From Citromicrobium sp. (lineage in GTDB: Bacteria > Pseudomonadota > Alphaproteobacteria > Sphingomonadales > Sphingomonadaceae), in assembly GCA_002712945.1 (NCBI GenBank), contig PAVA01000058.1, positions 1 through 40,966 of the forward strand: 40,966 bases of DNA, written 5' to 3'. Below, piece after piece: positions 1,412 to 20,941 of the stretch; position 1 is the first letter of the stretch; the number at the start of each line of letters is the position of its first letter. The position numbers and the translations under genes are program-made. The notes under the pieces were generated by a model. That model had not been told where the DNA came from and searched no databases. It saw nothing but the letters and a program-made list of their open reading frames with translations.

Positions 1412-3562
1412 TTAGTGGGGGAGGATGCTTGGCAGCGAGACGGCGTGGCTACCCACCTGGCGGACCCACAGCTTGCCCTGCGGGTAGGCCGCCTTGAGGG
1501 CAGCCCAGTCCGCTGCGGGCAGGGTGAAGAACGACTCCGAGATGTCCCAGATCGAGACAGGCGCGTCGACCGGGCCGAAGCCGACACGATAGGCCTCGCG
1601 CTCTTCCGCCAGCGGGGTCTCGACCCCGTCGAGCCAGCGCCATGCACCGCGCGCACGCCTGACCCAGCGCCATTGCGGATCGCCGCCGGGGCCATGTGCG
1701 AAGCCGGGATGGACCGGCGCGAGGGGGCGCAGGGTCGTGTCCCCCGAAGTCAGCGACGCATAGACCGGCTCGGCATCGCCGATCCCGCTGAGCGCCGCGA
1801 TCTCCGCGTAGGACACGAGGCCGAGCGAGAGCAGCCTTTCCTCGAGCAGCACCGCCGGAGCGCCGGTTGCGTGGCCGGTTGCGGCATGATGCTCGGTCCC
1901 GCCCCGACCGCGCAGCAGGCCGGTTAGCCGCCACTCGCCTGCCCCGAGCGGCTGCGCGAAGCGGAACTGCAGTACTTCCTCGCCCAGCAGCAGGCGGTTG
2001 GCCCCGTCGAGCAGCGCCCGCTCGTCGACCGATTGCAGCTGGTCGTGTTCGGAGGTCAGAGCGATGTCGAGCACGCCATCGGGCTCGAACACCAGCGCTG
2101 GCGAGGCGGGCAGCGCTGTCAGGCTGTGCCCCTGAACCGCATCGCCCCGCGCGGACAGCGCCAGCGGAACGAGCGTTTCGTTGTCCACACCCGCCAGGGC
2201 GATCGCGCCGCGTGCACCCGTCCTGCTCACCGCAGCATAGCGCTGGGGCACATTGCCCGCGCCGGTTCCGTCCCACGGAAGCTCGAAATAGCGCAGCGTC
2301 AGCTCGCCCTGCGCTTCGTCGACCGGCACAAGCGCGGTTCCGGCGTCGGCGATGGGTTGGGCAGACGTCGAGGGCATCACCCGCTCCAGCAGCAGATCGA
2401 CCCCATCGGCGTGCGTCTCCGTGCTGCGCACCAGCCAGATGCGCGCATCGCCTTCACGTGTCACGCAGCGCCCTGGCGCAAGTTCGGGTGTCGCTTCGGC
2501 CACCCGGTAGGCGAGCGTCTCGCGCCGGGTCAGCGCGGTATGCCGCAGGTCGGCGATGCAGGCCCGCGCATCCGGGGCCGCGAAGACGCCTGCGAACTCG
2601 ACAATCTCGCGCTGGTTGCCGGTCGCACCGGGCGCATGCTGGAGCGATGGCTGGAAGTCGCGCGCGGGATCGTAATAGCGCAGCGCCGTGGGCGCGTCGC
2701 GGTCGGTCGATCGACGGCGCAGGGACGAAACGGCGCGGTCTTCGCCTCCGGCGCGTCCGACGACCGGCGATGGCAGCGGGTTCGCCCCGGTCGCGGCCAT
2801 CGGTGCCAGCGCCAGCCCGGCGGGAGTCGCTACCGCCGCGAAGGGGAACAGGCGGGTCATGTCGGCGAGCAGCACGGTTCGAGCACCGCCCCGGTCGGCA
2901 TAGCCCGCCAGTCCGGTGAGCGGAACCGAGGCCGACGGGGCCAGCGCGATCTCGCCCAGCAGGTCCACGAGATCGAGTGTGCCATCGGCGGCGATAACCT
3001 CGAAGCTGAGCGCCGGGATGCGGTTGCCGAAACTGGCGAGTTCGAGATTCTCGAACACGGCATAGGCGATTCCCCGGAAGGCGCAGGTCTGGCCGCCCTT
3101 GTCGGCCGCGATCAGCGGATCGATGGCTGCGTCCTCGTGGCCCGGATGGAGCCGCAAGGTGCCGCCGACCTTGAGGTCGCCCGCCGCGCCGCGCAGCAGC
3201 GCTCCGTCCGCCCAGATGCGGCCGATGGAGGAGACCGGACGACTCGACAGGGCGACCGCGAAGGACACCGAATAGCTGTAGCTCGTGGTTTTCGGCTGGC
3301 CCTTGCCGCCGCTCGTCTCGCTGCTTTCGACCAGGTCGGTCGCCCAGATGATCGTGCCGGGCAATCGCATGGTACCGTAGACGCGCGGGATGGGCTGGCC
3401 GTAGCTCGAGGTTGTGACCGCCAGTTCTGTCAGGCGCGGCCCTTCGCGCGAGGAAGAGCCGATGATCGTGGTGTCGACCGCGCGGCCAAGCAGCGCACCG
3501 ACCGCGCCGCCGACGGGCCCGCCCACAGCCGTGCCGACAGCCGAGAGAATCAGGGTTGCCAT
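1412..3562 (-). CDS. GTA/phage tail tip protein, megatron-like (g15 homologue)
   Basis: A 716-residue protein. The start (MATLILSAVGTAVGGPVGGAVGALLG) is a Gly/Ala-rich hydrophobic segment followed by the motif YGQPIPRVYGTMRLPG, typical of large tail-tip/host-interaction proteins of siphophages and GTAs (gp15, megatron, in RcGTA). It overlaps the peptidase gene upstream by 13 bases, as in an RcGTA cluster. It is much shorter than the roughly 1300-residue RcGTA protein: the N-terminal TIM-barrel region of that protein is not here, while a TIM-barrel-like region is present in the g12-type gene at 4793-7144. It would form the baseplate tip and contact the recipient cell. Family assignment is good; domain boundaries are by eye. 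Confidence 0.82.
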   Translation of the reverse strand: MATLILSAVGTAVGGPVGGAVGALLGRAVDTTIIGSSSREGPRLTELAVTTSSYGQPIPRVYGTMRLPGTIIWATDLVESSETSGGKGQPKTTSYSYSVSFAVALSSRPVSSIGRIWADGALLRGAAGDLKVGGTLRLHPGHEDAAIDPLIAADKGGQTCAFRGIAYAVFENLELASFGNRIPALSFEVIAADGTLDLVDLLGEIALAPSASVPLTGLAGYADRGGARTVLLADMTRLFPFAAVATPAGLALAPMAATGANPLPSPVVGRAGGEDRAVSSLRRRSTDRDAPTALRYYDPARDFQPSLQHAPGATGNQREIVEFAGVFAAPDARACIADLRHTALTRRETLAYRVAEATPELAPGRCVTREGDARIWLVRSTETHADGVDLLLERVMPSTSAQPIADAGTALVPVDEAQGELTLRYFELPWDGTGAGNVPQRYAAVSRTGARGAIALAGVDNETLVPLALSARGDAVQGHSLTALPASPALVFEPDGVLDIALTSEHDQLQSVDERALLDGANRLLLGEEVLQFRFAQPLGAGEWRLTGLLRGRGGTEHHAATGHATGAPAVLLEERLLSLGLVSYAEIAALSGIGDAEPVYASLTSGDTTLRPLAPVHPGFAHGPGGDPQWRWVRRARGAWRWLDGVETPLAEEREAYRVGFGPVDAPVSIWDISESFFTLPAADWAALKAAYPQGKLWVRQVGSHAVSLPSILPH

Positions 3563-3981: not shown

Positions 3982-4796
3982 CAGGCCCGCGAGGGGTAGC
4001 GGGCGACGAGATCATTGCCCGGCAGGAAGGGCTCGCCGCGAAAATTGACCGCGTTGTCGAACCGCGTCGCGCATGTCGCCATGGTCCGGTCGCAGCCTTC
4101 GCGAAGCTGGCCGCGCGTGCCCGCCATCACGCCCGCCGGGATTGGCCCGTCGAGCACGAGCATTCCGTCGCTTTCGGCGATGATCGCCTGGCGCAGGCCC
4201 ACCGCCGGGCCATCGAGCCAGCGAAGCTCGCCGAAGACGAAGTCGCTCGCTGTCAGCCCTGCGAAACGCACGCCGTTCGTAGCGCCGTCGACCTCGGCGA
4301 CCAGCGCTTCGCGGGTGCAGCGCGCGGGCGAGAGGTTGCAGCCGGGCCCGCAAAAGCGCGCGCGGCAGCCGGGGCTGGTGCGCGGGACGGGGTCGAAATC
4401 GAGCGCCGCCTTGAGCGAGAGAAGCTTCGCCGAGAAGCCTTTGTCCACCACCTCCGTCTCACCCATGCTGCCGGCGAACAGCACCTGTGCCTCGCCCGTC
4501 TGCCAGTCGATCGTCCCCGCCAGGACCGTCGCGCCGTCGAATCGCCCCGCCGCCAGATCGACACCAGAGAGGGAATCATGTGTCAGCGCGCCATCCATCT
4601 GCGCATCGTCGCCGTCGATATCGGTCGTCAGGCGCAGCGCCGCGGGGCGGATGCCGGGCGCGGCCCGGAGGCGAAGTCCGTCGAGCACAAGATCGCGATC
4701 GTGGCTGGTGAAGCCGAGCGTCACCCCGTCGCGGCGCTCGATCCGCCAGAAAAAAGCGCGGGTCGCCAGCCGGTCCCCGGTCAAGGTCTCGCTCAT
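3981..4796 (-). CDS. DUF2163 tail hub protein, GTA g13 homologue
   Basis: A 271-residue protein starting MSETLTGDRLATRAFFWRIERRDG with the DUF2163 layout: an N-terminal beta domain and a C-terminal part with GFTSHDRDL and a Cys-rich stretch. Cysteines at 144, 149, 153, 160, 235 and 242 could bind a metal centre; I recall an iron-sulfur cluster being reported in the RcGTA hub protein. I chose the ATG at 4796 because it overlaps the stop of the upstream gene as ATGA; longer readings run into that gene. It would form the trimeric hub of the baseplate between distal tail protein and tip. Confidence 0.88.
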   Translation of the reverse strand: MSETLTGDRLATRAFFWRIERRDGVTLGFTSHDRDLVLDGLRLRAAPGIRPAALRLTTDIDGDDAQMDGALTHDSLSGVDLAAGRFDGATVLAGTIDWQTGEAQVLFAGSMGETEVVDKGFSAKLLSLKAALDFDPVPRTSPGCRARFCGPGCNLSPARCTREALVAEVDGATNGVRFAGLTASDFVFGELRWLDGPAVGLRQAIIAESDGMLVLDGPIPAGVMAGTRGQLREGCDRTMATCATRFDNAVNFRGEPFLPGNDLVARYPSRA

Positions 4797-7144
4797 GTCG
4801 CTTCCCTGATCTCGACCAGCGGTACGCTGGGGGCCTGCCCGGCCGCGAAGCCCGCCGCGCTGAGCGAAAGGCGGTCTTCGGCGAAGCGCACGGGCACGTC
4901 GAACAGGAAGCCCGCGCGCACCTCGGCACCCTCGGCAGGCGGTGCGTCGAGCACCACCTCGCCCAGCGGATCGAGCGTGAAGGCGGCGGTCTCCGCGCCG
5001 TCGATGGCGATCCGCACCGTGCCCGCGCGGGGCCGGGTGATCCGCCGCACTTGCGGCTCGGGCTCCTCGCCGTAGCGTTTTACCAGCGCAAAGCGGGACC
5101 GCTCGCCATCGCCGGTGCCGAGCAACTGGTCCTGCGGCCCCGGCGCGCCCTGCGCGTGATTGGACGAGTGGTCGAACGGATCGGCCAGGCGAAACCCGCG
5201 GGCGGGGCCGTGGCGGGCCCGGAAGAAGGCCAGCAAGGCCGCCAGCTCGCTTTCCGAGCGGATGCCGGGGCCGACATCGAAGCGCAGGCGCGCATCGGCC
5301 CATTGGGCGGTGCGGCGTTCGTGCCCCGAGGCGGAGACCAGCACCGAGGTCGAGAATTCGGGGCTCGCACTGGCATCGGTGCCGAGCGCGAGCGGGTAGG
5401 AAACATCGTCGAAGCCTTGCATGTCGTCCGTTCCGTGGGTGTTGGGCGGCGGCGGCAGCCGCGTGTATCCGTCGCGCACGACCTGCGGCAGCGCCCAGAC
5501 GAAGCGCTGCGCGACACCGCGCCGCGCCGCCTCGTCGAGCGCTTCGTCGATCCGGGGCCAGAAGGTCGCGGCGTCGTCTGCCGAGAGCACGAAGCCGGAC
5601 AGATAGTCCTGCCGGTCGACCGGATAGCCGAGCCGCGTATCGACCTGCGCGTAGGCATTGCGCCGCGCGCTGGCGGCTCCGGCGGTCAGCCAGTCGTAAT
5701 CCTCGACTTGCAGACGATCGAACGCCGGGAAGGCCCAGCCGAGCGGCATGTTCGCGCGTTTCTGTTCGGGCATTTCGGGGTCGAGCACGGTCGGCGTGAA
5801 CACCAGCAGCGAAACCTCCGCCGGGCCGCTCGCGGCGTCGCGCACGGCTTGCGCCAGACCCGCCGTCGTTTCGGCCAGCAGCGCGCCCGCCCGATCGAGC
5901 AGCACGAAATGCGGCGGATAGAGCCTCATCTTCAGGGTCGGGATCGAGGTCATGATCGCTTCGGCGCGCCAGATCGCGAGCGCCGCCTGATCGTAGAGGC
6001 AGCAGTGCCCGTCCGCGCGGACCCACCACCAGGGTTCGCCGATCTGGAACCGGACCGGCAGGCCCGCCGCCTCGACCAGCGCGACGAAATTAGCCGCGAC
6101 CGCGCGCAGCCACGCCATCGCCTCCTCGCGAGCAGGCGTGAGCAGCGCCGAAGGCGGCTCCCACCCGGTGCGTGCGGGCGTCCCGTCGAGCGCATATTGC
6201 TGCCAGGATTGCGGGCAGTGATCGGCCAGCAGCTCGTAGGACAGCGAGACGATGGGTTCCAACCCCGCGTCCGCCAGCGCTGCGAACAGTCCCGCGTGCC
6301 ACGCCCTTGCCGGTTCGCAGAGCGTGCCCGCAGGGTCGGCCAGCAGGCGCGCGGCTTCGGTCCCTAGGCCCGGCACGAGCCGGAAGAAGTGGCTCATGCC
6401 GACATAGTGCAGCACCCGCCCCCGATAGCCGAGGTGACGCAGCTGGCGCACAAGGCGGGCGGGCGTCTGGTTGAAGGCATCGTCGTAAGCAGTCGCGATC
6501 TGCTCGCCATGTTCGGGGAGCATGCCATCGCCGATCTCCAGCATCGCGCCCGCACCGTCGCAGGACATGTCGCTCAGCTCGGCCCAACCCTCGGCCCTCG
6601 CCGGCAAGCGATCGCTGCTGCCCGGCACATATCCCGGCGGGACGAGCGAGATGAACATCCGGTCGATGTCGGAGGGGTGGATCGCTTCGCCGGGCAGCGC
6701 GAAGCCGCTTTCGAGCGCGGAGAAGGGCAGCGTGACCACCGCATCCTCGGGCGAGCCTTCCGCATAGTTCCACAGGCGGATGTACCAGGCGCGCGGGGCA
6801 CCGCTCGCGTCACGCCCTTCGATGGTCAGCGTTGGGCCGTTGACCGCATCGAGCGCGATCACTCCGCCGCTGCGCCAGCGGAAGCGGAGCACGCTGTGGG
6901 CATAGTCGCGGTTGATGGCATAGGCGTGCAGCGGGTGGTCGAGCGTGTCCTCGCTCTCCCAGATCAGCCCGGCCAGCTCGCCCGCGTGGTGGAACTCGCA
7001 GGTCACCCGCAACGCGTCGGACGCGGTCGTAACCACACTCGCCATCATCGGGCGCGGGAAATTGACCGTCCAGAAGCGCGGATCGAACCGCTGGATGTGG
7101 TCGTGCTCCTGCCCGTTTCGGCGGGAGGCGAGCCAGTGGGCCAT
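4793..7144 (-). CDS. TIM-barrel/DUF2460 tail fusion protein, GTA g12 type
   Basis: A 783-residue protein. Residues 1 to about 195 are a beta-rich N-terminal region; about 200-560 looks like a TIM barrel (YRGRVLHYVGMSHFF, LEPIVSLSYEL, PVRFQIGEPWWW); residues 575-783 are a complete DUF2460 domain beginning MQGFDDVSYPLALG. In RcGTA, DUF2460 alone (about 210 residues) is the distal tail protein. The N-terminal part resembles the non-contractile tail-sheath/TIM-barrel arrangement of some phage proteins. I chose the ATG at 7144, which has GGAGG 7 bases upstream and shares a base with the tape-measure stop (TGATG); the GTG at 7147 is too close to that site. A proline-rich linker (RLPPPPNTHG) precedes the DUF2460 part. 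Confidence 0.82.
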   Translation of the reverse strand: MAHWLASRRNGQEHDHIQRFDPRFWTVNFPRPMMASVVTTASDALRVTCEFHHAGELAGLIWESEDTLDHPLHAYAINRDYAHSVLRFRWRSGGVIALDAVNGPTLTIEGRDASGAPRAWYIRLWNYAEGSPEDAVVTLPFSALESGFALPGEAIHPSDIDRMFISLVPPGYVPGSSDRLPARAEGWAELSDMSCDGAGAMLEIGDGMLPEHGEQIATAYDDAFNQTPARLVRQLRHLGYRGRVLHYVGMSHFFRLVPGLGTEAARLLADPAGTLCEPARAWHAGLFAALADAGLEPIVSLSYELLADHCPQSWQQYALDGTPARTGWEPPSALLTPAREEAMAWLRAVAANFVALVEAAGLPVRFQIGEPWWWVRADGHCCLYDQAALAIWRAEAIMTSIPTLKMRLYPPHFVLLDRAGALLAETTAGLAQAVRDAASGPAEVSLLVFTPTVLDPEMPEQKRANMPLGWAFPAFDRLQVEDYDWLTAGAASARRNAYAQVDTRLGYPVDRQDYLSGFVLSADDAATFWPRIDEALDEAARRGVAQRFVWALPQVVRDGYTRLPPPPNTHGTDDMQGFDDVSYPLALGTDASASPEFSTSVLVSASGHERRTAQWADARLRFDVGPGIRSESELAALLAFFRARHGPARGFRLADPFDHSSNHAQGAPGPQDQLLGTGDGERSRFALVKRYGEEPEPQVRRITRPRAGTVRIAIDGAETAAFTLDPLGEVVLDAPPAEGAEVRAGFLFDVPVRFAEDRLSLSAAGFAAGQAPSVPLVEIREAT

Positions 7145-7725
7145 CACGAGACCTCCATTGCGCGGCGGATGCTTGCCGCGATCTGCCGCCCGGAGCGTTC
7201 GAGCGCGACCGGGGCACTGGTTCCGGCGGGAGCGGCGAGGGTGATCGAGACATCGACACGCTTCGCCCCTCCGCTGCCCTGCGCGATCGGCACGATGCGC
7301 CCGTCGCCCGGTGGCACGAACAGCTCGGGCCCGCGTTCGCCGACCAGATAGCCGCGCTGCGCGCTCACCGGCCCGCCGGTGGCCCGACCGGGCAGGCCGA
7401 GCGCGCCGCCCAGCACGGTGCCGAGGATGCCGCTCAGGGGCGTGTTCGATCCGAATAGCTGGCCCAGCCCGAGTTTAAGGGCCTGCGCCGCGATCCGGTC
7501 GATCGCGCGACTCGCGGCGGCCTGCAGATCCTCGAAGCCCAGGCTCCCGCGCCGGATGGCGGAGAGCAGGCTGCGTTCGAGCACGTCGCCCGCACGCACA
7601 AACCCGCCGACCAGTTCGCCGTCCAGATCCTTGCGCATGCGCGCGATATCCTCGGCAAACCCTTGCGTGCTCGCGCGCACGTCGATCAGCAGGGGTTCGA
7701 GATCGTCTGTTTCAAGAGCCGGCAT
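7144..7725 (-). CDS. Tail tape measure protein, GTA g11 homologue
   Basis: A 193-residue protein, short like the tape measure of RcGTA. It has a helical N-terminal half (LIDVRASTQGFAEDIARMRKD), a Gly-rich hydrophobic middle (LFGSNTPLSGILGTVLGGALGLPGRATGGPV) and the motif GYLVGERGPELFVPPGDG, which is typical of tape-measure C-termini. It starts inside the 3' end of the chaperone gene (14-base overlap). In the particle it would fill the tail lumen and set tail length. Motif, size and position together make this secure. Confidence 0.9.
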   Translation of the reverse strand: MPALETDDLEPLLIDVRASTQGFAEDIARMRKDLDGELVGGFVRAGDVLERSLLSAIRRGSLGFEDLQAAASRAIDRIAAQALKLGLGQLFGSNTPLSGILGTVLGGALGLPGRATGGPVSAQRGYLVGERGPELFVPPGDGRIVPIAQGSGGAKRVDVSITLAAPAGTSAPVALERSGRQIAASIRRAMEVS

Positions 7726-11674: not shown

Positions 11675-11714
11675 GGGGCACATCTCTTTCTTGCTTGGGG
11701 GAAGGAAAGCGTGA

Positions 11715-12181: not shown

Positions 12182-12486
12182 TTGAACAGCCCCGGCACGC
12201 CCAGCCGGACCGCGATGCCGAGCAGCAGCAGCGCGCACATCCCGCGCACCAGCCACTCGATCGCGGCCTTCCACGCGCTCGCCTTGGCATCGCGCCAGGC
12301 CTGCAGCAGCTCGCGCAACTCGTCGATATCGCCCGAGGCCGCTTCGTCCGACAGGCCGATGCGCACCAGCGCGCGGTTGGCACCCAGCTCGCCCGCTTCC
12401 TCCGCGATGGCGCGCAGGGTGACGAGTTCGGCGCCTTCGGTCCGCGCCTGCGCGAGCAGCGCGGCGAGCATGTCTTCGTTGGTCAT
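12178..12486 (-). CDS. DUF6127 family small membrane protein in GTA cluster
   Basis: A 102-residue protein starting MTNEDMLAALLAQARTEGAELVTLRAIAEEAGELGA (long helix) and ending with one likely membrane segment, MCALLLLGIAVRLGVPGLF. The pattern matches the DUF6127 protein that, from memory, sits between portal and protease in sphingomonad GTA clusters. The ATG at 12486 overlaps the portal stop as ATGA and the end overlaps the protease start. Function unknown; the membrane anchor suggests a role in the producing cell rather than in the particle. Confidence 0.75.
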   Translation of the reverse strand: MTNEDMLAALLAQARTEGAELVTLRAIAEEAGELGANRALVRIGLSDEAASGDIDELRELLQAWRDAKASAWKAAIEWLVRGMCALLLLGIAVRLGVPGLFK

Positions 12487-13643
12487 GGTGTGCTCTCCAC
12501 AGGAGCGAGGCCCAGCATCGCGCGGCGCTCCTCGTCGGTCAGGAAGTCTGCTTCGCTGACCTGCTTCCACAGCCGCTCGCGGTCTTCGGACAGCGCGGGC
12601 ACTCGGTCGAGATCGACTGCAATTCCCGCGCCGTCGAACCACGGCGCCATCCCGGCAGCGATGCCGCCGAAGATCTTGTCCGCCAGTGGAAGCAGCGTGA
12701 GCCGCCACAGCGCGCGGTTCGCCTCGCGGTAATTGGAATAGGTGTTGTCGCCCGGCAGGCCGAGCAGCATGGGCGGCACCCCGAAGGCGAGCGCGATGTC
12801 GCGCGCGGCGGCTGCTTTCAGCGTCGCGAAGTCCATGTCGGCGGGCGACAGCGCCATGCTCTGCCAGCTGAGCCCGCCTTCGAGCAGCATCGGACGGCCC
12901 GCATTGCCGTTGCCCTGGAAGGCGCTGGCGAGTTCGGCCTTGAGCCGCTCGAACTGGTCGGCGCTCAGGCCCTGCCCGTCGCCCGGCTGGTAGACCAGTG
13001 CGCCCGAGGGCCGCGCGGCATTCTCGAGCAGGGCATTGTTCCAGCGGCTCGCCGCGTTGTGGATCGCGATGGCCTGCGCGGCGGCGCTCAAGGCCCCCGC
13101 GCCGTAGTGATCGTCGCCGGGGTTGAGGCACTTGAGATGGATCAACTCGGGCCAGCCGTCCTCGTCCTCCAGCGGGATGACGTGGGTCTGCGCGCCGAGG
13201 TGGTAGGCGAAGGCTTCGGGCCAGCCGATCGGTCCGGGCCGGATCGTCACCCGCTCGGGCCGCAGCGCGAAAAGCTCGACCGGCTTGCCGCTGGCGTCCT
13301 TGAGCACCTGCACGAAGGCATTGCCGTGCAGCAGCAGGTGCGCGGCGATGGTCTCGACCAGCGACTGACCCGCGCTGGGTGCGGTGACGAGCGCGAGCAG
13401 GTCGTCCGCGTCGGTCTGTACGGGAGCCGCACCCACCCCTTCGGCCACGATCCGCACCGCCCGCTGCGCGACCGGGTTGGAGGCGTATCCGGCCTGCAGG
13501 CTGGTCGCATAGTCGAAGGGCGGGGCCGATTGCCCGCGCATCTCGAAGGCATGCGCCCAGGGCGAGGCAAACCCGCGCGCAATAGGCACATGGGCGCTCC
13601 CCCCGCCCTTGAAGGCGGAGGTTAGTGAGGTGAGGAAGGACAT
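12483..13643 (-). CDS. Phage portal protein, HK97 family, GTA g3 homologue
   Basis: A 386-residue portal protein. Seen are NPVAQRAVRIVAEGVG, LLLHGNAFVQVLKDASGKPVELFALRPERVTI, RWNNALLENAARPSGALVYQPGD and FGVPPMLLGLPGDNTYSNYREANRALWRLTLLPL, all standard for the HK97 portal family. It would form the DNA-entry ring of the head. The ribosome site CCGGAG stands 7 bases before the ATG. Its first 52 bases occur again, identical, at 14279-14330. It should follow the large terminase directly, but 1.24 kb with two opposite-strand genes intervene. Confidence 0.93.
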   Translation of the reverse strand: MSFLTSLTSAFKGGGSAHVPIARGFASPWAHAFEMRGQSAPPFDYATSLQAGYASNPVAQRAVRIVAEGVGAAPVQTDADDLLALVTAPSAGQSLVETIAAHLLLHGNAFVQVLKDASGKPVELFALRPERVTIRPGPIGWPEAFAYHLGAQTHVIPLEDEDGWPELIHLKCLNPGDDHYGAGALSAAAQAIAIHNAASRWNNALLENAARPSGALVYQPGDGQGLSADQFERLKAELASAFQGNGNAGRPMLLEGGLSWQSMALSPADMDFATLKAAAARDIALAFGVPPMLLGLPGDNTYSNYREANRALWRLTLLPLADKIFGGIAAGMAPWFDGAGIAVDLDRVPALSEDRERLWKQVSEADFLTDEERRAMLGLAPVESTP

Positions 13644-13697: not shown

Positions 13698-14201
13698 ATG
13701 CGGTGGACGATCGTTCTAACCTGGCTGGCAAGCATGGTGCTGACCGGATGCGCCGAAGCCACCAAAGGTCCGCCCGCCGATTGTGCCGCCGCGAAAGCGC
13801 AGTTTCAGGAATGCTTCGATCAGAATGCGGGCGGTGACGCAGCACATTTCGAAGCAATGTGGTATGCATGCATCCCGCACTCCCAAGCGAAGGTCATCGA
13901 AGGCTCGTGGGCGACCGACTTTGAATGGAACGCGTTTTTCGAAGGCCGTCAGCCGACACCGAAAGAGGCGTTCCCCGATACACTGCCTGCTTCGCTGGCA
14001 TTCAGGGACGGGGTCCAGGCACCGCCGAAGGCCGACGACGCAGCACGTCTATGGAAAATCAAGTTTGTGGGCCGGGAAGAAACCTGCCGCCCCTTCGATG
14101 ACATTGCGCCTACCTTCTTTGTAGAGGAGGTTCTGGAGAAGGAGCTGGTGTGGGAAGTTCAGGGCTATCCGACCTACTCGCTCGATCCAATGGAACGCTA
14201 A
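13698..14201 (+). CDS. Predicted lipoprotein inserted antisense in GTA cluster (2)
   Basis: A 167-residue protein starting MRWTIVLTWLASMVLTGCAE; the lipobox LTGC places Cys18 at the mature N-terminus. The mature part has CAAAKAQFQECFDQNAGG, WYACIP and EETCRPFDD, whose cysteines could pair in the periplasm; I do not recognise a family. It lies between portal and terminase on the opposite strand, starting 55 bases beyond the portal ATG, and its TAA overlaps the stop of the second terminase-end copy (CTTTAG on the minus strand). It looks less GC-rich than the phage genes. Probably an acquired accessory gene. Confidence 0.72.
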   Translation: MRWTIVLTWLASMVLTGCAEATKGPPADCAAAKAQFQECFDQNAGGDAAHFEAMWYACIPHSQAKVIEGSWATDFEWNAFFEGRQPTPKEAFPDTLPASLAFRDGVQAPPKADDAARLWKIKFVGREETCRPFDDIAPTFFVEEVLEKELVWEVQGYPTYSLDPMER

Positions 14202-14330: not shown

Positions 14331-14391
14331 GGAGGTCTCCGGTCGGGAGCGAGAGATTGGCCCGGACGGCCGATTGTGATATTTGCGTCGC

Positions 14392-14877
14392 ATGCGATTG
14401 CGACTGATCCTGGTCGGTATTTCATGCCTCGGGCTGGCGAGTTGCTCCGAGGTTTACGAGGTCCGCGCGGAAGTACGCGATGGGCAGATCGTTTTTACGG
14501 CCGAGAAAGACTGGTTTCGCGAACGATGCGTGAGTGAGATCGAGGTGCTCGCGGAGGGCGCCGACAGTACCCCCTCCTCTCCGCAAAGCGCTCTGCAGAG
14601 TGATGCGGAGAATCGACCCGCATTCGTGACCGTTTGGCGTGACAGTGGCGGGTCGCTCGAAGACCTCGGCGATGATTGCGAAAATCGATTTCCTGTACGC
14701 TACGGAGAGCCTCTTGCCGGCAAACCGCTCGATCGACCGCCCCAGCTTGGACCTGTTGGCGCCAAGCCTTTGGCTCGCGGCGTAGTCCACAAGATCAGGA
14801 CGACGACTCACTTGGGAGAGCACGGTTGGGGCAGTTTCGTGATCCATCGGGACGGCACGGTTGAAAATCTCGACTAG
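14392..14877 (+). CDS. Predicted lipoprotein inserted antisense in GTA cluster (3)
   Basis: A 161-residue protein from ATG 14392 (an in-frame TTG at 14383 would add three residues), starting MRLRLILVGISCLGLASCSE; lipobox LASC gives Cys18. The mature part (YEVRAEVRDGQIVFTAEKDWF, HLGEHGWGSFVIHRDGTVENLD) is not a family I recognise and is not clearly similar to the other two lipoproteins in the cluster. It ends 7 bases from the terminase stop, on the opposite strand, and starts about 60 bases beyond the portal-start copy. It looks less GC-rich than its neighbours. Confidence 0.7.
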   Translation: MRLRLILVGISCLGLASCSEVYEVRAEVRDGQIVFTAEKDWFRERCVSEIEVLAEGADSTPSSPQSALQSDAENRPAFVTVWRDSGGSLEDLGDDCENRFPVRYGEPLAGKPLDRPPQLGPVGAKPLARGVVHKIRTTTHLGEHGWGSFVIHRDGTVENLD

Positions 14878-14883
14878 TATTGC

Positions 14884-16203
14884 TCACATCCCCCGCACCC
14901 TTGGCCTTCCACCGCGCCCCAGCATCAGCTCGGTCAGCGCCCAGACGAGCGCGTCGGCGCGGTCGGGGGAGCGGCCCGGGCCTTCGTAACCGCCTCCGAC
15001 GATCAGCCCGCACAGCTGGTCCTCCAGCTTTGCGAAGAGGCCGGCGTGGCGCACCCGGCCTGCCTCATACAGAGCCGCGACCGGTTCGGCGCGGGCGACC
15101 TTGCCCCGGCTGGCGTGGACCAGCTTCACGGGCAGCGACACTTCGCCTGCGCGCAGGACGCTTTCGACCATCGCGCCGCCCTGGTTGGCTTCGGCCACGA
15201 CCCGGTCGGCATTCCATAGCTCGGCGGCGCGAGCGACCGCGCGGGCCCAGCGTTCGGGCGAGGCGCGCTCGATGCTCGCATCCGCCAGCACCATGGCCGT
15301 GCCCTCGCCGTCCACGCCGCACACCACGATCCCGCAGGCATCGCCCTGCGCGCTCGCGGGCGGATCGACGCCGACCACCACGCGCGCCCGGTCGGCGCAC
15401 GGCTTGGCCACGCGGCTCGCCTCCAGCATTGCGCGGGTCCACAGCGCGCCCTCGATATCGGTCAGCAATTCGCCGTCGAGTTCCTGCCGCCCGAGCGTCG
15501 TGCGCCCGAACTGGCGCCGCATCTGCCGCAGGAAGCGCTCGGGCAGATGCGCGGCATTGTCGTAGGTCGTGCCACGCGTCACCACGGCGCCATCCTCGGC
15601 GAGAAGCCGCTGGACCAGAGGCACGGCGCGCGGAGTGGTGGTGGCGAGCGCACGGGGGCGTTCGCCCAGCCGCAGGCCCATCAGCAGATTATCCCATGCG
15701 GCCAGGGCGCGCTCGCCCGAATTATCCCATTTGGCGATTTCGTCACACCAGGCGTAGCCATGTTGCGGCCCGCGCAGGCTCTCCGGCTCGGCGGCCGAGT
15801 AGCAGGTGGCGCGCGCCCCGTTCGCCCAGGTGAGCCGCCGCAGGCTCGGCTCCCATAGGGGCGCAAGGCCGGGCGGCGAGACCGCGAGGATGCCGCTCTC
15901 GCCCTCGATCATCACGGCGCGGACCTCCGCCAGCGACGCGCCGACCAGCGCGATCCGCGCCTCGGGATTGCCGCGCGCCACCATCCGCACCCATTCCGCG
16001 CCCGCGCGGGTCTTCCCGAAGCCGCGCCCGGCACAGACCAGCCAGGTGTGCCAGTCGCCCGGCGGAGGGAGCTGCTCGGGCCGGGCCCACAGCTCCCAGT
16101 GAAAAGCCAGCGCCTCTGCCTCCTCGGCGGAAAGCGAGGCAAACCAGTCCTCCCGCGCTTGCGGCGCGAGGTCCAGCAGCGCGCCGAGCCGGTCAGCCGC
16201 CAT
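14884..16203 (-). CDS. Large terminase, GTA g2 homologue
   Basis: A 439-residue protein. ATPase motif A is AGRGFGKTR (residues 58-66), motif B YAWCDE (150-155), followed by the coupling stretch ATTTPRA; the nuclease half opens with VVVGVDPPAS (Asp280). It packages host DNA into GTA heads. I chose the ATG at 16203 (MAADRLGALL), which overlaps the small terminase by 11 bases. The 3' end, coding GRPRVRGM, is partly duplicated at 14198-14281. Confidence 0.93.
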   Translation of the reverse strand: MAADRLGALLDLAPQAREDWFASLSAEEAEALAFHWELWARPEQLPPPGDWHTWLVCAGRGFGKTRAGAEWVRMVARGNPEARIALVGASLAEVRAVMIEGESGILAVSPPGLAPLWEPSLRRLTWANGARATCYSAAEPESLRGPQHGYAWCDEIAKWDNSGERALAAWDNLLMGLRLGERPRALATTTPRAVPLVQRLLAEDGAVVTRGTTYDNAAHLPERFLRQMRRQFGRTTLGRQELDGELLTDIEGALWTRAMLEASRVAKPCADRARVVVGVDPPASAQGDACGIVVCGVDGEGTAMVLADASIERASPERWARAVARAAELWNADRVVAEANQGGAMVESVLRAGEVSLPVKLVHASRGKVARAEPVAALYEAGRVRHAGLFAKLEDQLCGLIVGGGYEGPGRSPDRADALVWALTELMLGRGGRPRVRGM

Positions 16204-16690
16204 CGGACGAAGTGCCCCCGGGGCTCGCGGCAAGGCGCGAGCGAATCGTCGCCAGCTTGCGATCGAGCGCGGCATAGACCGCCGCCTCGTCCTGCCCGCG
16301 ACGCCGCGCGCGTTCGACCGCCACCGTCTCGCGGTGCGCGGCCAGCAGGCGGATCGCATTGGCAATGTCGAGCTTGCGTTCGGGGTCGTGCCCGCGCAGC
16401 TGGGCGAGCACTTCCATTTCGAGATGTTCGTATCCTTCGTAGAGTGCGGCGCGCCAGTCGGCTGCGAAATCGGCGTGTTCGCGCCGGGCCTTGTAGGCGC
16501 GGCTGGGCGAGACACCCGCTTCCTTGGCCGAGGCCGTCACATTGGAGGTCGCGGCGAGTGCCTGGAGGAAATAGGTCCGCCAGTGCTTGTTGACCGGCCC
16601 TTCGCCGTCGGCCGCCTTCTGCGCGTCGGTGATGCGGACATTCTTGCGCTTCCCCCCGCGCGGGGAGGAGGCACGCGTTTTGCTGGTCAT
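16193..16690 (-). CDS. Small terminase, GTA g1 homologue
   Basis: A 165-residue protein with a basic N-terminus (GGKRKNVRIT), a helix-turn-helix-like stretch NVTASAKEAGVSPSRAYKARREHADFAADWR and a helical C-terminal half. This matches the small terminase encoded first in RcGTA-like clusters. It would bind DNA and regulate the large terminase. No strong ribosome site is seen before the ATG. Its leader is only 77 bases long before a transposon interrupts it. Confidence 0.82.
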   Translation of the reverse strand: MTSKTRASSPRGGKRKNVRITDAQKAADGEGPVNKHWRTYFLQALAATSNVTASAKEAGVSPSRAYKARREHADFAADWRAALYEGYEHLEMEVLAQLRGHDPERKLDIANAIRLLAAHRETVAVERARRRGQDEAAVYAALDRKLATIRSRLAASPGGTSSDGG

Positions 16691-16767
16691 GAAAAAGAGG
16701 CCCCGGGGCTGGCGACGGGGCGGTGGAAGGTCGGCCTCCCTGCTGCCTGCACCATCGCGATGTTCCG

Positions 16768-16775
16768 TTTTTCTA
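16768..16775. repeat. Target site duplication, left copy
   Basis: TTTTTCTA directly before the left inverted repeat of the transposon; the same 8 bases stand directly after the right inverted repeat at 20145-20152. An 8-bp duplication is the expected size for IS1595-family elements. The perfect match argues for a fairly recent insertion. Confidence 0.88.
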
Positions 16776-16802
16776 GGCGATTGTGTACTTTACACACCCA
16801 CG
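16776..16802 (+). repeat. Left terminal inverted repeat of transposon
   Basis: GGCGATTGTGTACTTTAC continues to CACCCACG. Against the reverse complement of 20118-20144 it matches at 22 of 27 positions, the first 11 being identical. A TTTACA hexamer at 16789-16794 could serve as a -35 box for the transposase. Confidence 0.85.
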
Positions 16803-16842
16803 GGATTCTGCTACTTACGAGGGGTAAGGAGCAAAAATCACC

Positions 16843-17808
16843 ATGTCGGTTCTCTCATCCCCTCACTTTCACGACGAAGCCAAGGCGTTCGAGTACCTTG
16901 AAAGCATCGTGTGGGCCGATGGCGTAGTCTGCCCGCACTGCGGCACGGTGGGAGGCCGCGTGTACGACCTGTCGGGCGTGCGCACAAAGCCGAGCAAGAA
17001 GAACCCCGAGGGCAAGCTTCGCCACGGTCTCAAAAAGTGTGGCGAGTGCCGCAAGCAGTTCACGGTGAAAGTCGGCACCGTGTTCGAGCATGCCCGCCTG
17101 CCGCTCTACAAGATGCTACAGGCCGTTCACCTGATGGTTTCGAGCAAGAAGGGCATCAGCGCCCACCAGCTCGCCCGTGTGCTTGAGGTCCAGTACAAGA
17201 GCGCCTGGTTCCTCGCGCACCGTATTCGTGAAGCTATGCGCTCGGGCGATCTTGCGCAGCCGTTCGGCAACGGCGGCGGCGCCGTGGAGGTGGACGAGAC
17301 CTATATCGGCTTCAAGAAGGGCCGCGCCTTGCAGAAGGGCACGGGTCACAAGATGGCCGTTGTCGCGCTGGTGGATCGCGAGAGCGGCAAGTCCAAGTGG
17401 TTCCACGTCGAGAACGCCCGCGCAGACGACATTCACCCCATCGTGCTCGACAACATCGCCCGCGAAGCCCGCCTTATGACGGACGAAGCCAAGATGTACC
17501 GCAAGATTGGTCGCGACTTTGCCGAGCATGGCACCACCACTCACGCCCGCTTCGAGTACGTGAACCCGAAAGACCGCACCATCCACACGAACACGGTTGA
17601 AGGCGCGTTCTCGATCTTTAAGCGCGGTATGCGTGGCGTGTACCAGCACTGTGCTGAGCATCACTTGCACCGCTACCTTGCAGAGTACGAATTTCGCTAC
17701 AACACCCGCACCGCCAACGGCTTCGATGATCGCCAGCGCGGCGCGGAAGCGGTGAAGGGCATCGTCGGCAAGCGGCTAACGTATGAAGGGCCTAACGCGA
17801 GCGCCTAA
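16843..17808 (+). CDS. IS1595-family (ISXO2-like) transposase
   Basis: A 321-residue transposase. An N-terminal zinc ribbon (C30xxC33, C66xxC69) precedes a DDE-type domain: D151 in VEVDETYIG, D214 in MTDEAKMY, N250 in HTNTVEGAF and K260 in FKRGMRGVYQH. The order and the GHKMAVVALVDRESG stretch are characteristic of the ISXO2/IS1595 group. The frame is intact, so the element may still be mobile. An ATG with a GGGGTAAGGAGC site upstream fixes the start. It reads away from the GTA genes. Confidence 0.94.
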   Translation: MSVLSSPHFHDEAKAFEYLESIVWADGVVCPHCGTVGGRVYDLSGVRTKPSKKNPEGKLRHGLKKCGECRKQFTVKVGTVFEHARLPLYKMLQAVHLMVSSKKGISAHQLARVLEVQYKSAWFLAHRIREAMRSGDLAQPFGNGGGAVEVDETYIGFKKGRALQKGTGHKMAVVALVDRESGKSKWFHVENARADDIHPIVLDNIAREARLMTDEAKMYRKIGRDFAEHGTTTHARFEYVNPKDRTIHTNTVEGAFSIFKRGMRGVYQHCAEHHLHRYLAEYEFRYNTRTANGFDDRQRGAEAVKGIVGKRLTYEGPNASA

Positions 17809-17825
17809 GCGCGCCGAACAACTTT

Positions 17826-17852
17826 GGTTGCCGGGCTTCAAGCCTCGCAACC
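17826..17852 (+). terminator. Possible hairpin terminator after transposase
   Basis: GGTTGC (17826-17831) pairs with GCAACC (17847-17852), with inner GGCT/AGCC. It stands 18 bases past the transposase stop. No T-run follows, so factor-independent termination is uncertain. Confidence 0.35.
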
Positions 17853-17912
17853 GGAGCAGATGGCGCTAAGTGACTCAAAGCATTGGCTTATCTTAAGCGC
17901 CTGATTCACTTT

Positions 17913-17934
17913 ACAAAATCGCAAAAACTTGCTA
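17913..17934 (-). repeat. Internal sequence resembling the transposon end
   Basis: On the minus strand this reads GCGATTTTGTAAAGTGAATC, matching the terminal repeat GCGATTGTGTA at 10 of 11 positions and then diverging. It lies 105 bases after the transposase stop, where an ordinary short IS of about 1.16 kb would end. It may be a relic of the original right end. No matching target duplication is next to it. Confidence 0.4.
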
Positions 17935-17944
17935 TATAGATAAA

Positions 17945-17981
17945 GCGGGGTAGCGCCTTCGAATGAGGGTATGCGCCCCGC
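17945..17981 (-). terminator. Probable terminator of the DUF3800 gene
   Basis: On the minus strand GCGGGG (17981-17976) pairs with CCCCGC (17950-17945), with extra GCGC pairing inside, followed by TTTAT. It lies 5 bases beyond the DUF3800 stop. The loop is about 25 bases, longer than usual. Confidence 0.45.
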
Positions 17982-17985
17982 TCCT

Positions 17986-18702
17986 TTACGCCCGTATTAT
18001 ACCAAGCTTTTTGGGGTCGGCCTTAAAGGCGACTTTCAGCAGGGCAGGCTCAAGCAGCATGAAAGACTGGTCAAAGCCCATCTGCACCGCGCGCGGAGTG
18101 GGCTTTTCGAAGCGTAGTAGGCTGTACGCGCAAAAGTCGGCTGCTTGGATGAAAAAACTGCGCTTGGAATCGCGATAGACGATATCCTCAATCAGATGCT
18201 CTGCCGGTATGTTTTTGGACGTAGAGCCATCAGCCCACCCGCCAAGGGCGCTTGGGATATAATTATGCCGCCTCATCTTCCGAAGCAGATGATCGTAGTT
18301 CTTGCCTTCATCCGAAATCACAAGAGCATGGCTGCCGCGTTTTTTGGCCGTGTTCTCGATGCGTTGCATAAGCCGCTTAAAGAGTTCGTCCTCGTCAGCG
18401 CGCCGTCCATACGCATTCAAGATTGTAGCGTCCGGTAGGGCGACAATCTGCTTCAGAATCCAATTGAAAATCTCGACGCGCTCAGTTCGCGTTATCGTTC
18501 TGTCGGAGACATTTCCCCTGCCGCCTACCCAGTCCGTGGCGTGCAGCTCCTTCTTGATGTAAACTCCCCCGCGCTCCTTCATGATGCGTCGCATTTCGAC
18601 GAGCTGATTGAATGCCTGGAGCCACTTCTCGGACGGGATCATTATCGCCGAGAAACAGATAATTTTGCCGTCTTTCGAGTCATCGACGTAAACGAGGTGC
18701 AT
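17986..18702 (-). CDS. DUF3800 domain protein, transposon passenger
   Basis: A 238-residue protein with the DUF3800 layout: N-terminal YVDDS, a middle acidic motif VISDEGKNYD and a late FIQAADFCAYSLLRF. DUF3800 is thought to have an RNase H-like fold, and these Asp residues would be its metal site; the substrate is unknown. Many members lie on mobile elements or near defence genes. The ATG is only 8 bases from the oppositely directed 48-codon gene. No good ribosome site is visible, so translation may be weak or leaderless. Confidence 0.8.
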   Translation of the reverse strand: MHLVYVDDSKDGKIICFSAIMIPSEKWLQAFNQLVEMRRIMKERGGVYIKKELHATDWVGGRGNVSDRTITRTERVEIFNWILKQIVALPDATILNAYGRRADEDELFKRLMQRIENTAKKRGSHALVISDEGKNYDHLLRKMRRHNYIPSALGGWADGSTSKNIPAEHLIEDIVYRDSKRSFFIQAADFCAYSLLRFEKPTPRAVQMGFDQSFMLLEPALLKVAFKADPKKLGIIRA

Positions 18703-18710
18703 TGGCCGAA

Positions 18711-18857
18711 ATGAGTGACACGACCGACAAGAGTCAACTCGACAAATTCAAGGAAGCCGCACGCGAGCTTGAATGCGACGACGATCCCGAGGCGTTCAAG
18801 AAGCGGCTTGGGAAGCTGGCGAAGGCTACCGATAAATCAGGCGGGTCGCCCGATTGA
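18711..18857 (+). CDS. Small acidic/basic 48-residue protein, unknown
   Basis: MSDTTDKSQLDKFKEAARELE, then CDDDPEAFKKRLGKLAKATDKSGGSPD: two predicted helices, highly charged. A GAGGTG stretch 12 bases before the ATG could be the ribosome site, lying inside the start of the divergent DUF3800 gene. It overlaps the end of the convergent proteinase gene by 21 bases. I recall similar short helical proteins in alphaproteobacteria but no function. Its codon pattern and compact fit between two genes support it being real. Confidence 0.55.
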   Translation: MSDTTDKSQLDKFKEAARELECDDDPEAFKKRLGKLAKATDKSGGSPD

Positions 18858-19673
18858 GAACCGATTACCCTCGAAGACCTTCCCGATGTTCTTGAGCTTC
18901 ATGTCGTAATCATAAAGGCAGTAGAGAAGCCATATCCGTCGCCAAAGCTCGTCACCCGGCTCAAGGAAGGAAGCGTTCAAGCCGAGCGCAGTGGCTTCGT
19001 CGTAGTCGATGACTGCACCATGAGACTTGTACCCTGCCGAGTCGGAAATCTTGTCCAGAACATCATTTATTGTAGCTTGGTCCTTCCCGCTCATCATACC
19101 TTTCTCGAGGATATCGAAGGCCATCTGCCGCATGCGATCTGCTGCCAGAGTGGCCATAATCTGTACGCGAGGGGGAAGCGTCTGATCTTGAGCGACAATC
19201 TGACAGGGGACACTTACGTTATCGATCGTCATATGTGGATCGATGGGGCCCAGCTCAGAGTTGATCCCCAACACGATCTCATTCGAGGAAAGGGCGATCA
19301 CCGTACCCGCGGACTTCGCCCAGCTCGGAACGATCACCCGATAGTCAGTGAACTTCTTACTCAAGACAGAAATGATCTTCTCGCAGGCATCTACCGACCC
19401 GCCGGGGGTTTGGATCAGGATGTCGCAAACATCACCATCGATGGCCTGAATTATTTCGGCAATATCGTCTGGATCGGTATGATTGATGGGCTGGTTGAGC
19501 TGTGAAAAGCACACCATCAAAGGCCTTCCTGTGAGGGCCTCGATATCTAAGATCAGTAGCTGACGGAGATAGCGATCTTTTTCCTTCGCCCAGTACTTGG
19601 GCGACTGAGAGGTAAGATCAGCAGTCCGTGGAAATTGCGATAACGCCGTGTGTTGCGAACTTCCATCCGCCAT
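18837..19673 (-). CDS. SDH-type Clp-fold serine proteinase, transposon passenger
   Basis: A 278-residue protein of the serine dehydrogenase proteinase/SppA-like group (Clp-crotonase fold). The oxyanion loop is IQTPGGSVDA (residues 87-96), the nucleophile Ser121 lies in PSWAKSAGT, and Asp145 in ELGPIDP is a candidate third catalytic residue. Unlike the membrane-bound relatives, no signal or transmembrane segment is visible, so a cytoplasmic proteinase is likely. It follows a 63-codon gene with a 56-base overlap, suggesting coupled translation. The substrate is unknown. Confidence 0.82.
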   Translation of the reverse strand: MADGSSQHTALSQFPRTADLTSQSPKYWAKEKDRYLRQLLILDIEALTGRPLMVCFSQLNQPINHTDPDDIAEIIQAIDGDVCDILIQTPGGSVDACEKIISVLSKKFTDYRVIVPSWAKSAGTVIALSSNEIVLGINSELGPIDPHMTIDNVSVPCQIVAQDQTLPPRVQIMATLAADRMRQMAFDILEKGMMSGKDQATINDVLDKISDSAGYKSHGAVIDYDEATALGLNASFLEPGDELWRRIWLLYCLYDYDMKLKNIGKVFEGNRFSIGRPA

Positions 19674-19809
19674 TGCTCTCTACCTTTGGAAAGATGTAGG
19701 AGCTTTCAAGTACTGGTTCAGATTTAGGGTAGTCAAGCGCACGCCGAGGTTCTTCAACCTTGGACTCCTTGCGCTCGGTTGTGCTCAATGCTGTTAGATC
19801 AATCATCAT
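19618..19809 (-). CDS. 63-residue protein upstream of the SDH proteinase, unknown
   Basis: From ATG 19809 (MMIDLTALSTTERKESKVEEP) to a stop 56 bases inside the proteinase gene; a GTG at 19821 would add four residues but has no spacing for a ribosome site. It ends WKFATHGVIAISTDC. The ERKESKVEEPRRAL region is charged and helical. I know no family. The long overlap with the proteinase start resembles a leader or partner gene in the same operon. It may also be a spurious frame; confidence is moderate. Confidence 0.45.
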   Translation of the reverse strand: MMIDLTALSTTERKESKVEEPRRALDYPKSEPVLESSYIFPKVESNGGWKFATHGVIAISTDC

Positions 19810-19821
19810 GGCCCGACTCAC

Positions 19822-20144
19822 GCCCCCCTCAAGCCCTGTTGAACGCGATGTAGTGAACTAAAATCCCACCCACAAGATGAGTCGTGCCGGAACCGCGACG
19901 AAGCGAATCACCGGTGCGGTGAATCGCGTTGCCATCTTTGAATCAAATAGATTCATTCGCCGCTGCGCGGCAAAATTGGTTGATGCTGTGCAGGAGGCCC
20001 GACGAACCAGTCCGGTAAAAAAGTTCTGTCCTACAGCGTCACGTTCGGTTTAGAGATTCTCGCATGATGGCCGAATCGGGTTCACCGGCAAGGTCTTGTT
20101 ATTCCGCCGTTCTCAGGCTTGGGTTCGTAAAAGACACAATCGCC
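19822..20144. other. Gene-free right end of transposon
   Basis: About 320 bases between the 63-codon gene and the right terminal repeat. I see no convincing open frame or RNA gene. If the minus-strand promoter at 20147-20175 is active, its transcript starts in the right repeat and crosses this stretch as a long leader for the passenger operon. Confidence 0.5.
20118..20144 (-). repeat. Right terminal inverted repeat of transposon
   Basis: Read on the minus strand it starts GGCGATTGTGTCTTTTAC and continues GAACCCAAG, pairing with the left repeat at 22 of 27 positions. It is followed directly by the second copy of TTTTTCTA. Confidence 0.85.
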
Positions 20145-20152
20145 TTTTTCTA
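20145..20152. repeat. Target site duplication, right copy
   Basis: TTTTTCTA, identical to 16768-16775. On the minus strand it reads TAGAAAAA, whose first six bases serve as the -10 box of the candidate promoter here. Confidence 0.88.
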
Positions 20153-20175
20153 ACCAAAGAGTGTCACGATGTCAA
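20147..20175 (-). promoter_or_regulatory. Candidate promoter formerly facing the GTA cluster
   Basis: On the minus strand TTGACA (20175-20170), a 17-base spacer, then TAGAAA (20152-20147). The -35 is a perfect consensus; the -10 is partial. With the transposon removed, transcription would start about 85 bases before the small-terminase ATG. As it stands the promoter points into the transposon's right end and the passenger operon; the left copy of the duplication keeps only the -10 box. Confidence 0.5.
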
Positions 20176-20299: not shown

Positions 20300-20941
20300 A
20301 TGCTGCGCGGATTGTACGAATGGACGATGCAGAAGGCGGCGCATCCCCACGCCGAGTGGTGGCTTGCCCTCTTCGCCTTCCTCGAATCGAGTTTCTTCCC
20401 CGTTCCGCCGCATCCGCTGCTGGGCCTCATGTGCCTGGCTGAGCCGCGCAAGGCGATCCGCTTTGCCCTGATCTGTACCATCGCATCGGTGGTCGGCGGG
20501 ATGTTCGGCTACGCCATCGGCGCGCTCTTGTATGAAAGCATCGGGCTGTGGCTGCTGGGCGTGCTGGGCTATGCCGATGCCTTCCCGTGGGCGGCCTGCA
20601 CGGTCAACGCCAATGGCGGCTGGGCGGTCTTCGCCACCGCGAGCACGCCGATTCCCTACAAGCTGATGACGATCACGGCAGGCTTCGTCAGCATGAACCT
20701 CGTCACCTTCATCATCGCCAGCATCGCCGGGCGCGGGCTGATCTTCATGACCGTGGGCGTGCTGTTCCGCCTGTTCGGCGCGCCGATCAAGAAGTTCATC
20801 GACAAGTATCTGGTGCCGCTGACCACGCTGTTCGTGGTGCTGGTGATCGGCGGCTTCCTCGCGATCACGCAGCTCGCGCATGACGATGGCGAGGCGAACG
20901 GCGACGACCCCTGCGCTTCGGCCACGCTCGAAGACCTGTAA
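20300..20941 (+). CDS. VTT-domain (DedA/YqaA-like) inner-membrane protein
   Basis: A 213-residue membrane protein with about five hydrophobic segments and the VTT features FLESSFFPVPPHPLLG and, later, STPIPYKLMTITAGFVSMNLVTFI, which correspond to the re-entrant loops of the DedA/YqaA group (undecaprenyl-phosphate or lipid flippase relatives). I chose ATG 20300 (MLRGLYEWTMQKA), with AGGA upstream; an open frame further upstream runs into the transposon and is not coding. The next gene follows after 5 bases, so the two are probably an operon. Confidence 0.85.
   Translation: MLRGLYEWTMQKAAHPHAEWWLALFAFLESSFFPVPPHPLLGLMCLAEPRKAIRFALICTIASVVGGMFGYAIGALLYESIGLWLLGVLGYADAFPWAACTVNANGGWAVFATASTPIPYKLMTITAGFVSMNLVTFIIASIAGRGLIFMTVGVLFRLFGAPIKKFIDKYLVPLTTLFVVLVIGGFLAITQLAHDDGEANGDDPCASATLEDL

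Follow-up and report, generated by a model that had tools for sequence, protein, structure and literature searches.

The transposon considered here occupies positions 16776-20144 of a 40,966-nucleotide contig of Citromicrobium sp. (PAVA01000058.1; the whole stretch analyzed is referred to as the window) and stands next to a predicted gene transfer agent (GTA) cluster. It belongs to the IS1595 family, which comprises the groups ISPna2, ISH4, IS1595, ISSod11, ISNwi, ISNha5, and IS1016, some of which carry passenger genes. Among site-specific transposons, Tn7 prefers one chromosomal site (attTn7, at the end of glmS), where it is present as a single copy, in one orientation, and with swappable cargo.

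IS1595 members are described with a single transposase gene, along with the traits of the family (PMC8101967). TnGBS, ISLre2, and ISKra4 are Mutator-like DDE elements found at a fixed distance from promoters; their insertions lie approximately 15-17 bp upstream of the -35 element, at many different sigma-A promoters, and those of TnGBS and ISLre2 have a single orientation (PMC3942029). For the GTA promoter, GafA binding was reported in Rhodobacter (PMC6363796), and GafY, GafZ, and IHF were reported to act on it in Caulobacter (PMC11150451). In the species studied, GTA induction kills the producing cells, and non-producers may cheat (PMC9632790). How GTAs persist despite the killing of their producers is a long-standing question.

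The first-pass annotation of the window recognized the transposon and overlooked its target, a GTA promoter-like region at which nearly the whole transposase clade is found; this target is the main point of the present report. We consider it highly likely that the clade members insert at one fixed position in a promoter-like box upstream of the sphingomonad GTA small terminase gene.

Insertion at the GTA box

The window element is an intact, cargo-carrying transposon of 3,369 bp. Its inverted ends are identical over the outermost 11 bases (11/11) and match at 22 of 27 positions overall, and the perfect 8-bp duplication TTTTTCTA flanks it on both sides, with no third copy in the 40,966 bases. 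The precise bounds, the ends, and the family assignment given by the first-pass annotation were all reproduced, the last by matches to PF12762 and NF033547. The G+C content of the element (0.551) differs from that of the remainder of the window (0.673). The same anatomy, which the annotation had proposed to look for at other sites, is repeated in many other loci and is therefore not due to chance. The features of the insertion are as follows.

16768..16775, no strand: left target-site duplication TTTTTCTA (TAGAAAAA on the GTA strand), with a perfect copy at 20145-20152
16776..20144, plus strand: transposon, 3,369 bp, delimited by its ends, the duplication, and the anatomy of relatives
16776..16802, plus strand: left terminal inverted repeat, 22/27 against the right end
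20118..20144, minus strand: right terminal inverted repeat
20145..20152, no strand: right target-site duplication TTTTTCTA
20153..20175, minus strand: upstream half of the split box, TTGACATCGTGACACTCTTTGGT, its GGY end adjoining the duplication
16750..16767, minus strand: downstream half of the split box, CGGAACATCGCGATGGTG
16193..16690, minus strand: predicted GTA small terminase (TerS), from its position beside the large terminase (TerL) and its conservation in relatives

The neighboring gene is predicted to encode the TerS of an RcGTA-like GTA cluster; it had no Pfam or NCBIfam match. Upstream of it lies a conserved promoter-like box, TTGACATCGTSACGCT-N4/5-GGY followed directly by the duplicated bases, which the element splits. 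The box is called a promoter because it contains TTGACA, precedes TerS, and is conserved. Excision of the element with one copy of the duplication restores TTGACATCGTGACACTCTTTGGT-TAGAAAAA-CGGAACATCGCGATGG, and other genomes have unoccupied boxes ahead of their terminase genes, often with a YqaA-like gene on the far side. In the empty box of locus L134, the 8-mer is identical to that of the window, and the first 23 bases contain one difference. With its perfect duplication and the empty sites elsewhere, the insertion can be regarded as recent, as the first-pass annotation had suggested; the clean empty site that it anticipated was found in other species, the comparison being between species. 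The box was present in 192 of the 397 genomes sampled from one bacterial family (0 for a control pattern), and 28 of the 31 box sites returned as loci from this sample were empty. Genomes G127, G326, and G296 contain 3, 5, and 8 copies (loci L165-L175), some of which stand before genes that do not resemble GTA genes; this suggests the box of a regulator, possibly with a regulon.

Relatives of the transposase were collected by scanning species genomes with an alignment of six transposases (the best 80 of 104 were kept), and 15 loci from viral contigs and more from the 397-genome sample were added. The tree comprised 98 transposases from 100 loci, as L079 and L103 were excluded for containing several stops; L104-L106, with partial transposases, were excluded earlier, and L007 and L012 were read without forming tree rows. 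The window transposase fell in a clade of 40 (support 100/97), of which 38 were located at the box or beside TerS, one (L001) on a chimeric-looking contig of this locus, and one (L013) elsewhere. When each row was labeled as GTA or other from the reading of its flanks, with four labels set by hand (L020, L037, and L093 as GTA and L049 as other), the clade contained 39 GTA labels and one other (L013), and none of 500 label shuffles was equally clustered. Of the 58 rows outside the clade, 57 carried the label other, the exception being L054. In the family sample, the clade occurred in 11 of the 397 genomes and was at the box in all 11, the box of L037 being degenerate. Every one of the 28 clade genomes searched contained a single transposase at 77% identity or more.

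Three side observations concern individual loci of the tree. In L001, the TerS-side half-box is present in both flanks (1-340 and 3997-4407) in an inverted arrangement, which indicates either a chimeric contig or a rearrangement. L037 (genome G021, contig C25) contains, approximately 0.6 kb from the transposase at the GTA site, another one of the IS1595 type (56%). L069 and L070, from two Henriciella species, are closely related elements at the same non-GTA site with an identical 36-bp left flank and the duplication AATATTTC, and either common descent or another preferred target would account for them.

Of the 40 clade rows, 32 had a box that a script could read, and in 31 of these the duplication directly followed GGY. 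It began 23 nt from the first T of TTGACA in 13 rows and 24 nt in 18, because CT and GG are separated by a spacer of 4 or 5 bases; the distance from GGY is constant. Among the unreadable rows, TerS was within 0.4 kb in L017, L033, and L036 and 2.5 kb after the transposase in L093, the GGY end of the box was visible in L020 and L037, and the remaining two were L001 and L013. The duplications were perfect (8/8) in 33 of the 40 rows, including L013; the right ends were chosen by a score that included the duplication match, and the ends of all these rows matched at 20 or more of 25 positions except in L040 (15/25). The duplicated 8-mers track the local host box, being TAGAGAAA-like in one host group and ACAAGTGT-like in another.

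Both orientations occur. By manual assignment, 34 elements were forward (transposase toward TerS) and four were reverse (window, L044, L017, and L036), with L001 omitted because both its flanks carry the TerS-side half-box. The reverse rows are scattered in the clade: L036 groups with forward L035 (100/100), L017 with forward L159 (99/39, which is not firm), and the window and L044 fall in an unresolved group containing forward rows. Horizontal movement is indicated by L025 and L076, whose transposases are identical at 314 of 315 residues at a TerL identity of 67%; the DNA of this pair is 92% identical beginning 32 bp ahead of the element and continuing through the transposase, with little cargo in common. 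Among 26 clade loci, TerL identity was below 70% in 306 of 325 pairs. Since old duplications would have drifted apart, perfect duplications beside such diverged TerL genes point to recurrent insertion, and it is very likely, as far as sequence comparison can tell, that the insertions are recurrent, targeted, and base-precise in the GTA promoter region.

Proposed mechanism and alternative explanations

The transposase, alone or with a host regulator bound to the box, would recognize the box. The specificity is probably encoded by the transposase rather than by a host factor alone. Because sister clades lack the GTA target, the specificity residues can be sought by comparison, and a first list of clade-typical transposase residues was compiled. 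The 48-aa protein encoded within the elements is also present in elements that avoid the GTA and, by itself, is therefore not the targeting factor.

The eight duplicated bases would cover the expected -10 place, 17 or 18 bases after TTGACA, so the TTGACA half would remain complete and face into the element, and the TerS side would keep the duplicated bases only. This half runs, in the window, in the direction of the strand that carries the DUF3800 and protease genes and the 63-codon frame (listed below), and in forward elements it is directed toward the transposase. The element may in this way bring its own genes under the GTA promoter. The GTA genes would be transcribed less and GTA production would fall, and it seems fairly probable from the arrangement of the split box that the element reduces GTA expression.

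Several results weigh against targeted insertion or against silencing. A strict scan for the sigma-70 consensus did not call the box in L134. The L024 insertion is shifted 18 bp further on, and L013 (transposase 87%) sits elsewhere; neither TerL nor the GTA tail gene was found in the L013 genome, which is a metagenome-assembled genome (MAG), and since the same tail-gene search was negative for 10 of 32 other filled genomes and 8 of 27 empty-box genomes, this absence is not proof that L013 lacks a GTA. No TerS or TerL match was found in the loci L029, L030, L037, L039, and L020. Forward elements outnumber reverse ones 34 to 4, with kinship uncorrected. The right flanks of L025 and L076 are identical at 58 of 60 bases, so right-side recombination is possible for this pair. 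L054, in which a non-clade transposase (69%; element at 9932-12690) broke the box approximately 19 bases upstream of the usual position with the duplication ATCGTCAC, and L049, a non-clade locus with a 3-mismatch box-like flank that was counted as other, would also fit selection. Finally, 16 of the 28 filled regions had a full GTA cluster, as did 16 of the 22 empty regions (p 0.37); a cluster was counted by hand as full when at least 8 of 10 genes matched, and three filled regions and one empty region were short. Decay of the GTA behind the element was not supported, as clusters with an insertion were not clearly more decayed, and this speaks against long-standing silencing; a young age of the insertions, incomplete silencing, or restored expression would account for it.

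If the elements had spread mostly by homologous recombination through the conserved flanks, for example inside GTA particles, the shared site would be passive. The elements of the clade (2.25-3.84 kb) are smaller than the DNA of a GTA particle, which is approximately 8.3 kb in Caulobacter (PMC9632790), and L025 and L076, with their almost identical transposases, have matching right flanks. However, the left flanks of this pair diverge from 15 bp outside the element, which is 7 bp past the duplication. Opposite orientations occur, and the duplications follow the local host box. The window and L158 are alike in transposase and right end, yet their orientations are opposite and their flanks align inverted. 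We regard recombination as an improbable main route of spread.

Selection could produce the same pattern if insertions were nearly random and those silencing a lethal GTA were retained. L024, at 18 bp off, and L054, of another clade and at another position, break the same box, and GTA production lyses cells, with Caulobacter non-producers possibly acting as cheaters (PMC9632790). However, an insertion anywhere in the promoter or the cluster of approximately 15 kb would silence the GTA, whereas 31 of the 32 readable insertions are at the same base from GGY, and sister clades from the same bacterial family are not at the box, except for L054. This makes selection a poor candidate for the precision of the site, with a slim chance of being correct.

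Vertical inheritance of one ancient insertion, with numerous losses and a subsequent exchange of cargo, would agree with the deep transposase groups, which roughly track host groups, and with the correlation between transposase and TerL identity (rho 0.52 for 325 pairs from 26 loci). It is very improbable given the 33 of 40 perfect duplications beside TerL pairs mostly below 70%, the reverse orientations in separate parts of the clade, the clean empty sites, and the discordance of L025 and L076. That the element is an ordinary IS1595 passenger transposon without a particular target, as all tested IS1595 family features would allow, is hardly credible in view of the near-single target of its clade.

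Recurrent, targeted insertion at the box is thus retained. The near-exclusive single site suggests mobile elements specialized for interrupting or hijacking the GTA. It is conceivable, though doubtful, that the element benefits through cheating. A further extension, which is speculative and on balance unlikely, is that of a dedicated GTA parasite that would home to the regulator-controlled promoter, silence the GTA so that the host escapes lysis, time the expression of its transposase and cargo to GTA induction by promoter capture, spread in part in the GTA particles of element-free neighbors, and carry exchangeable defense-like and toxin-antitoxin-like cargo.

Genes, cargo, and surrounding cluster

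The genes of the element and those of the surrounding locus are as follows.

16789..16817, plus strand: possible transposase promoter (TTTACA within the left end, 17 bp, TACTTA), proposed by eye
16843..17808, plus strand: IS1595-family transposase, 321 aa (PF12762, PF12760, NF033547)
17986..18702, minus strand: DUF3800 protein, 238 aa, cargo slot A (E 4.2e-14, above the Pfam cut-off)
18711..18857, plus strand: conserved 48-aa protein between both cargo slots (conservation in relatives)
18837..19673, minus strand: ClpP-like SDH-type serine proteinase, 278 aa, cargo slot B (above the Pfam cut-off)
19618..19809, minus strand: 63-codon frame overlapping the start of the protease gene (relative in L159)
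14884..16515, minus strand: GTA large terminase (PF17289, PF03237), the true start probably being nearer 16190
12483..13643, minus strand: HK97-type portal
4793..7147, minus strand: GTA tail protein, Rcc01695 family (TIGR02217)
1412..3562, minus strand: GTA baseplate protein (megatron, Rcc01698-like), 364.6 bits, under the NCBIfam cut-off of 800
20301..20941, plus strand: VTT-domain (YqaA-like) membrane protein on the far side of the box, start codon chosen by eye

The transposase matched PF12762 (E 2.6e-32) and NF033547 (182 bits, cut-off 75), and its N-terminal zinc ribbon matched PF12760 (E 4.7e-10). D151, D214, N250, and K260, which we take to be the catalytic DDN-K residues, were invariant across six aligned transposases, in agreement with the intact residues noted by the first-pass annotation. 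The TTTACA/TACTTA pair was not among the calls of a consensus promoter scan. The frames of the element include one transposase, of the IS1595 type, and no Tns-like match. PADLOC applied to the five proteins of the element gave a best match of only E 0.039, an Rfam scan gave nothing at gathering scores, and the phage collection held no record spanning 80% of the locus. An exact search of viral contigs with the end pattern returned one locus (L012).

Relatives of the 48-aa protein were found in 78 of the 100 loci compared and in 38 of the 40 clade rows, the other two being contigs that show the left flank only. Variation in its gene was concentrated at the third codon position (0.565 versus 0.381 and 0.332), and the 48-codon frame thus encodes a genuine, conserved protein. 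Its structure was predicted as two helices at low confidence (pLDDT 68, pTM 0.30). A profile search in which 7,988 candidates were scored gave at least 5,342 matching protein clusters (E 1e-4 or better), and no Pfam domain was present among the 120 matches listed. This very large unannotated family, with proteins of approximately 46 aa (core QLDKFKEAARELECDDD), accompanies IS1595-type cargo transposons, mostly in Alphaproteobacteria. In L042, a second 48-aa-like frame (9741-9881) is located just upstream of the occupied GTA box and is perhaps a remnant of an earlier element.

The order of the element family is transposase, cargo slot A, small protein, cargo slot B, and right end. The cargo varies between elements, as compared in 37 loci with at least 76% transposase identity, including L013 and L079. 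These yielded 72 frames of at least 125 aa after one frame had been removed by script; inspection by eye excluded seven of them, which were antisense-like or belonged to the split protease gene of L159, and the remaining 65 were scanned. The cargo included DUF3800 (15), SocA/Panacea (5), BstA (2, E 9e-116), DUF5343 (2), and NYN (2) proteins and one each of PemK, PIN, a type II methyltransferase, and a type II restriction enzyme, and it looks 'defence-like' by these domains.

The window and L159 have the protease and the 63-codon frame in common, the latter being 92% identical and adjoining the same protease, and differ in slot A, where L159 carries another DUF3800 gene. The DUF3800 proteins of the window and L042 are 68% identical, and the transposases are 77% identical. 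The cargo is therefore modular and is exchanged around the constant protein of approximately 48 residues. The cargo had been called unfamiliar by the first-pass annotation; this holds for the pairing of DUF3800 with the SDH-type protease (81.6 bits to the nearest NCBIfam model, under the cut-off of 250), which was not seen in the other compared elements, and not for the protease and 63-codon frame, which recur in L159.

Away from the element, the GTA cluster continues in the order of small and large terminase, HK97-type portal, tail protein, NlpC/P60 protein, and baseplate protein, and the GTA-type tail, portal, and terminase genes matched TIGR02217, portal_HK97, Rcc01698_C, and terminase 6N/6C in order. 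The VTT-domain match (31.4 bits) is slightly under the Pfam cut-off (33.9). Plus-strand lipoprotein-like frames at 13698-14201 and 14383-14877 lie between the portal and large terminase genes and oppose the GTA genes. In L186, L193, L207, L209, L219, L220, and L231, no matches were found between the terminase and the distal GTA end, both with and without an element.

Comparison with known systems

In 2012, a figure of Citromicrobium GTA clusters already included a putative transposase, named in its legend, which is possibly the same phenomenon (PMC3338782). The accompanying section 7 of that article does not discuss the ends, duplication, cargo, specificity, or promoter. In a literature search that covered few subscription papers and partial texts, we recognized neither a transposon targeting the GTA promoter nor an IS1595-family group with a single preferred target. 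If the reading given here is true, GTA production is contested by mobile elements, and filled and empty genomes allow the cost and benefit of the GTA to be measured. Elements that break or capture the GTA start signal would constitute a natural knock-out series across several genera.

The window element shares the DDE_Tnp_IS1595 domain, the N-terminal zinc ribbon, the 8-bp duplication, and the inverted ends with the IS1595 family. Unlike the described members, the elements of its clade combine one fixed target with a constant 48-aa gene that is accompanied by two cargo slots of variable content. The cargo is ordinary for a modular family, and the surprise is the target.

A preferred single site, a single copy, and swappable cargo are features in common with Tn7. 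The window element differs from Tn7 in having no Tns-like match, in targeting the GTA promoter region rather than the end of glmS, and in inserting in both orientations.

TnGBS-type elements are the closest in behavior, as they also insert at a fixed distance from a promoter, which is putative in the present case. The clade of the window element differs from TnGBS, ISLre2, and ISKra4 in its IS1595-type transposase, which is of another superfamily, and in inserting downstream of TTGACA, 23-24 nt from its first base, and it uses the -10 position of one particular promoter-like box in both orientations.

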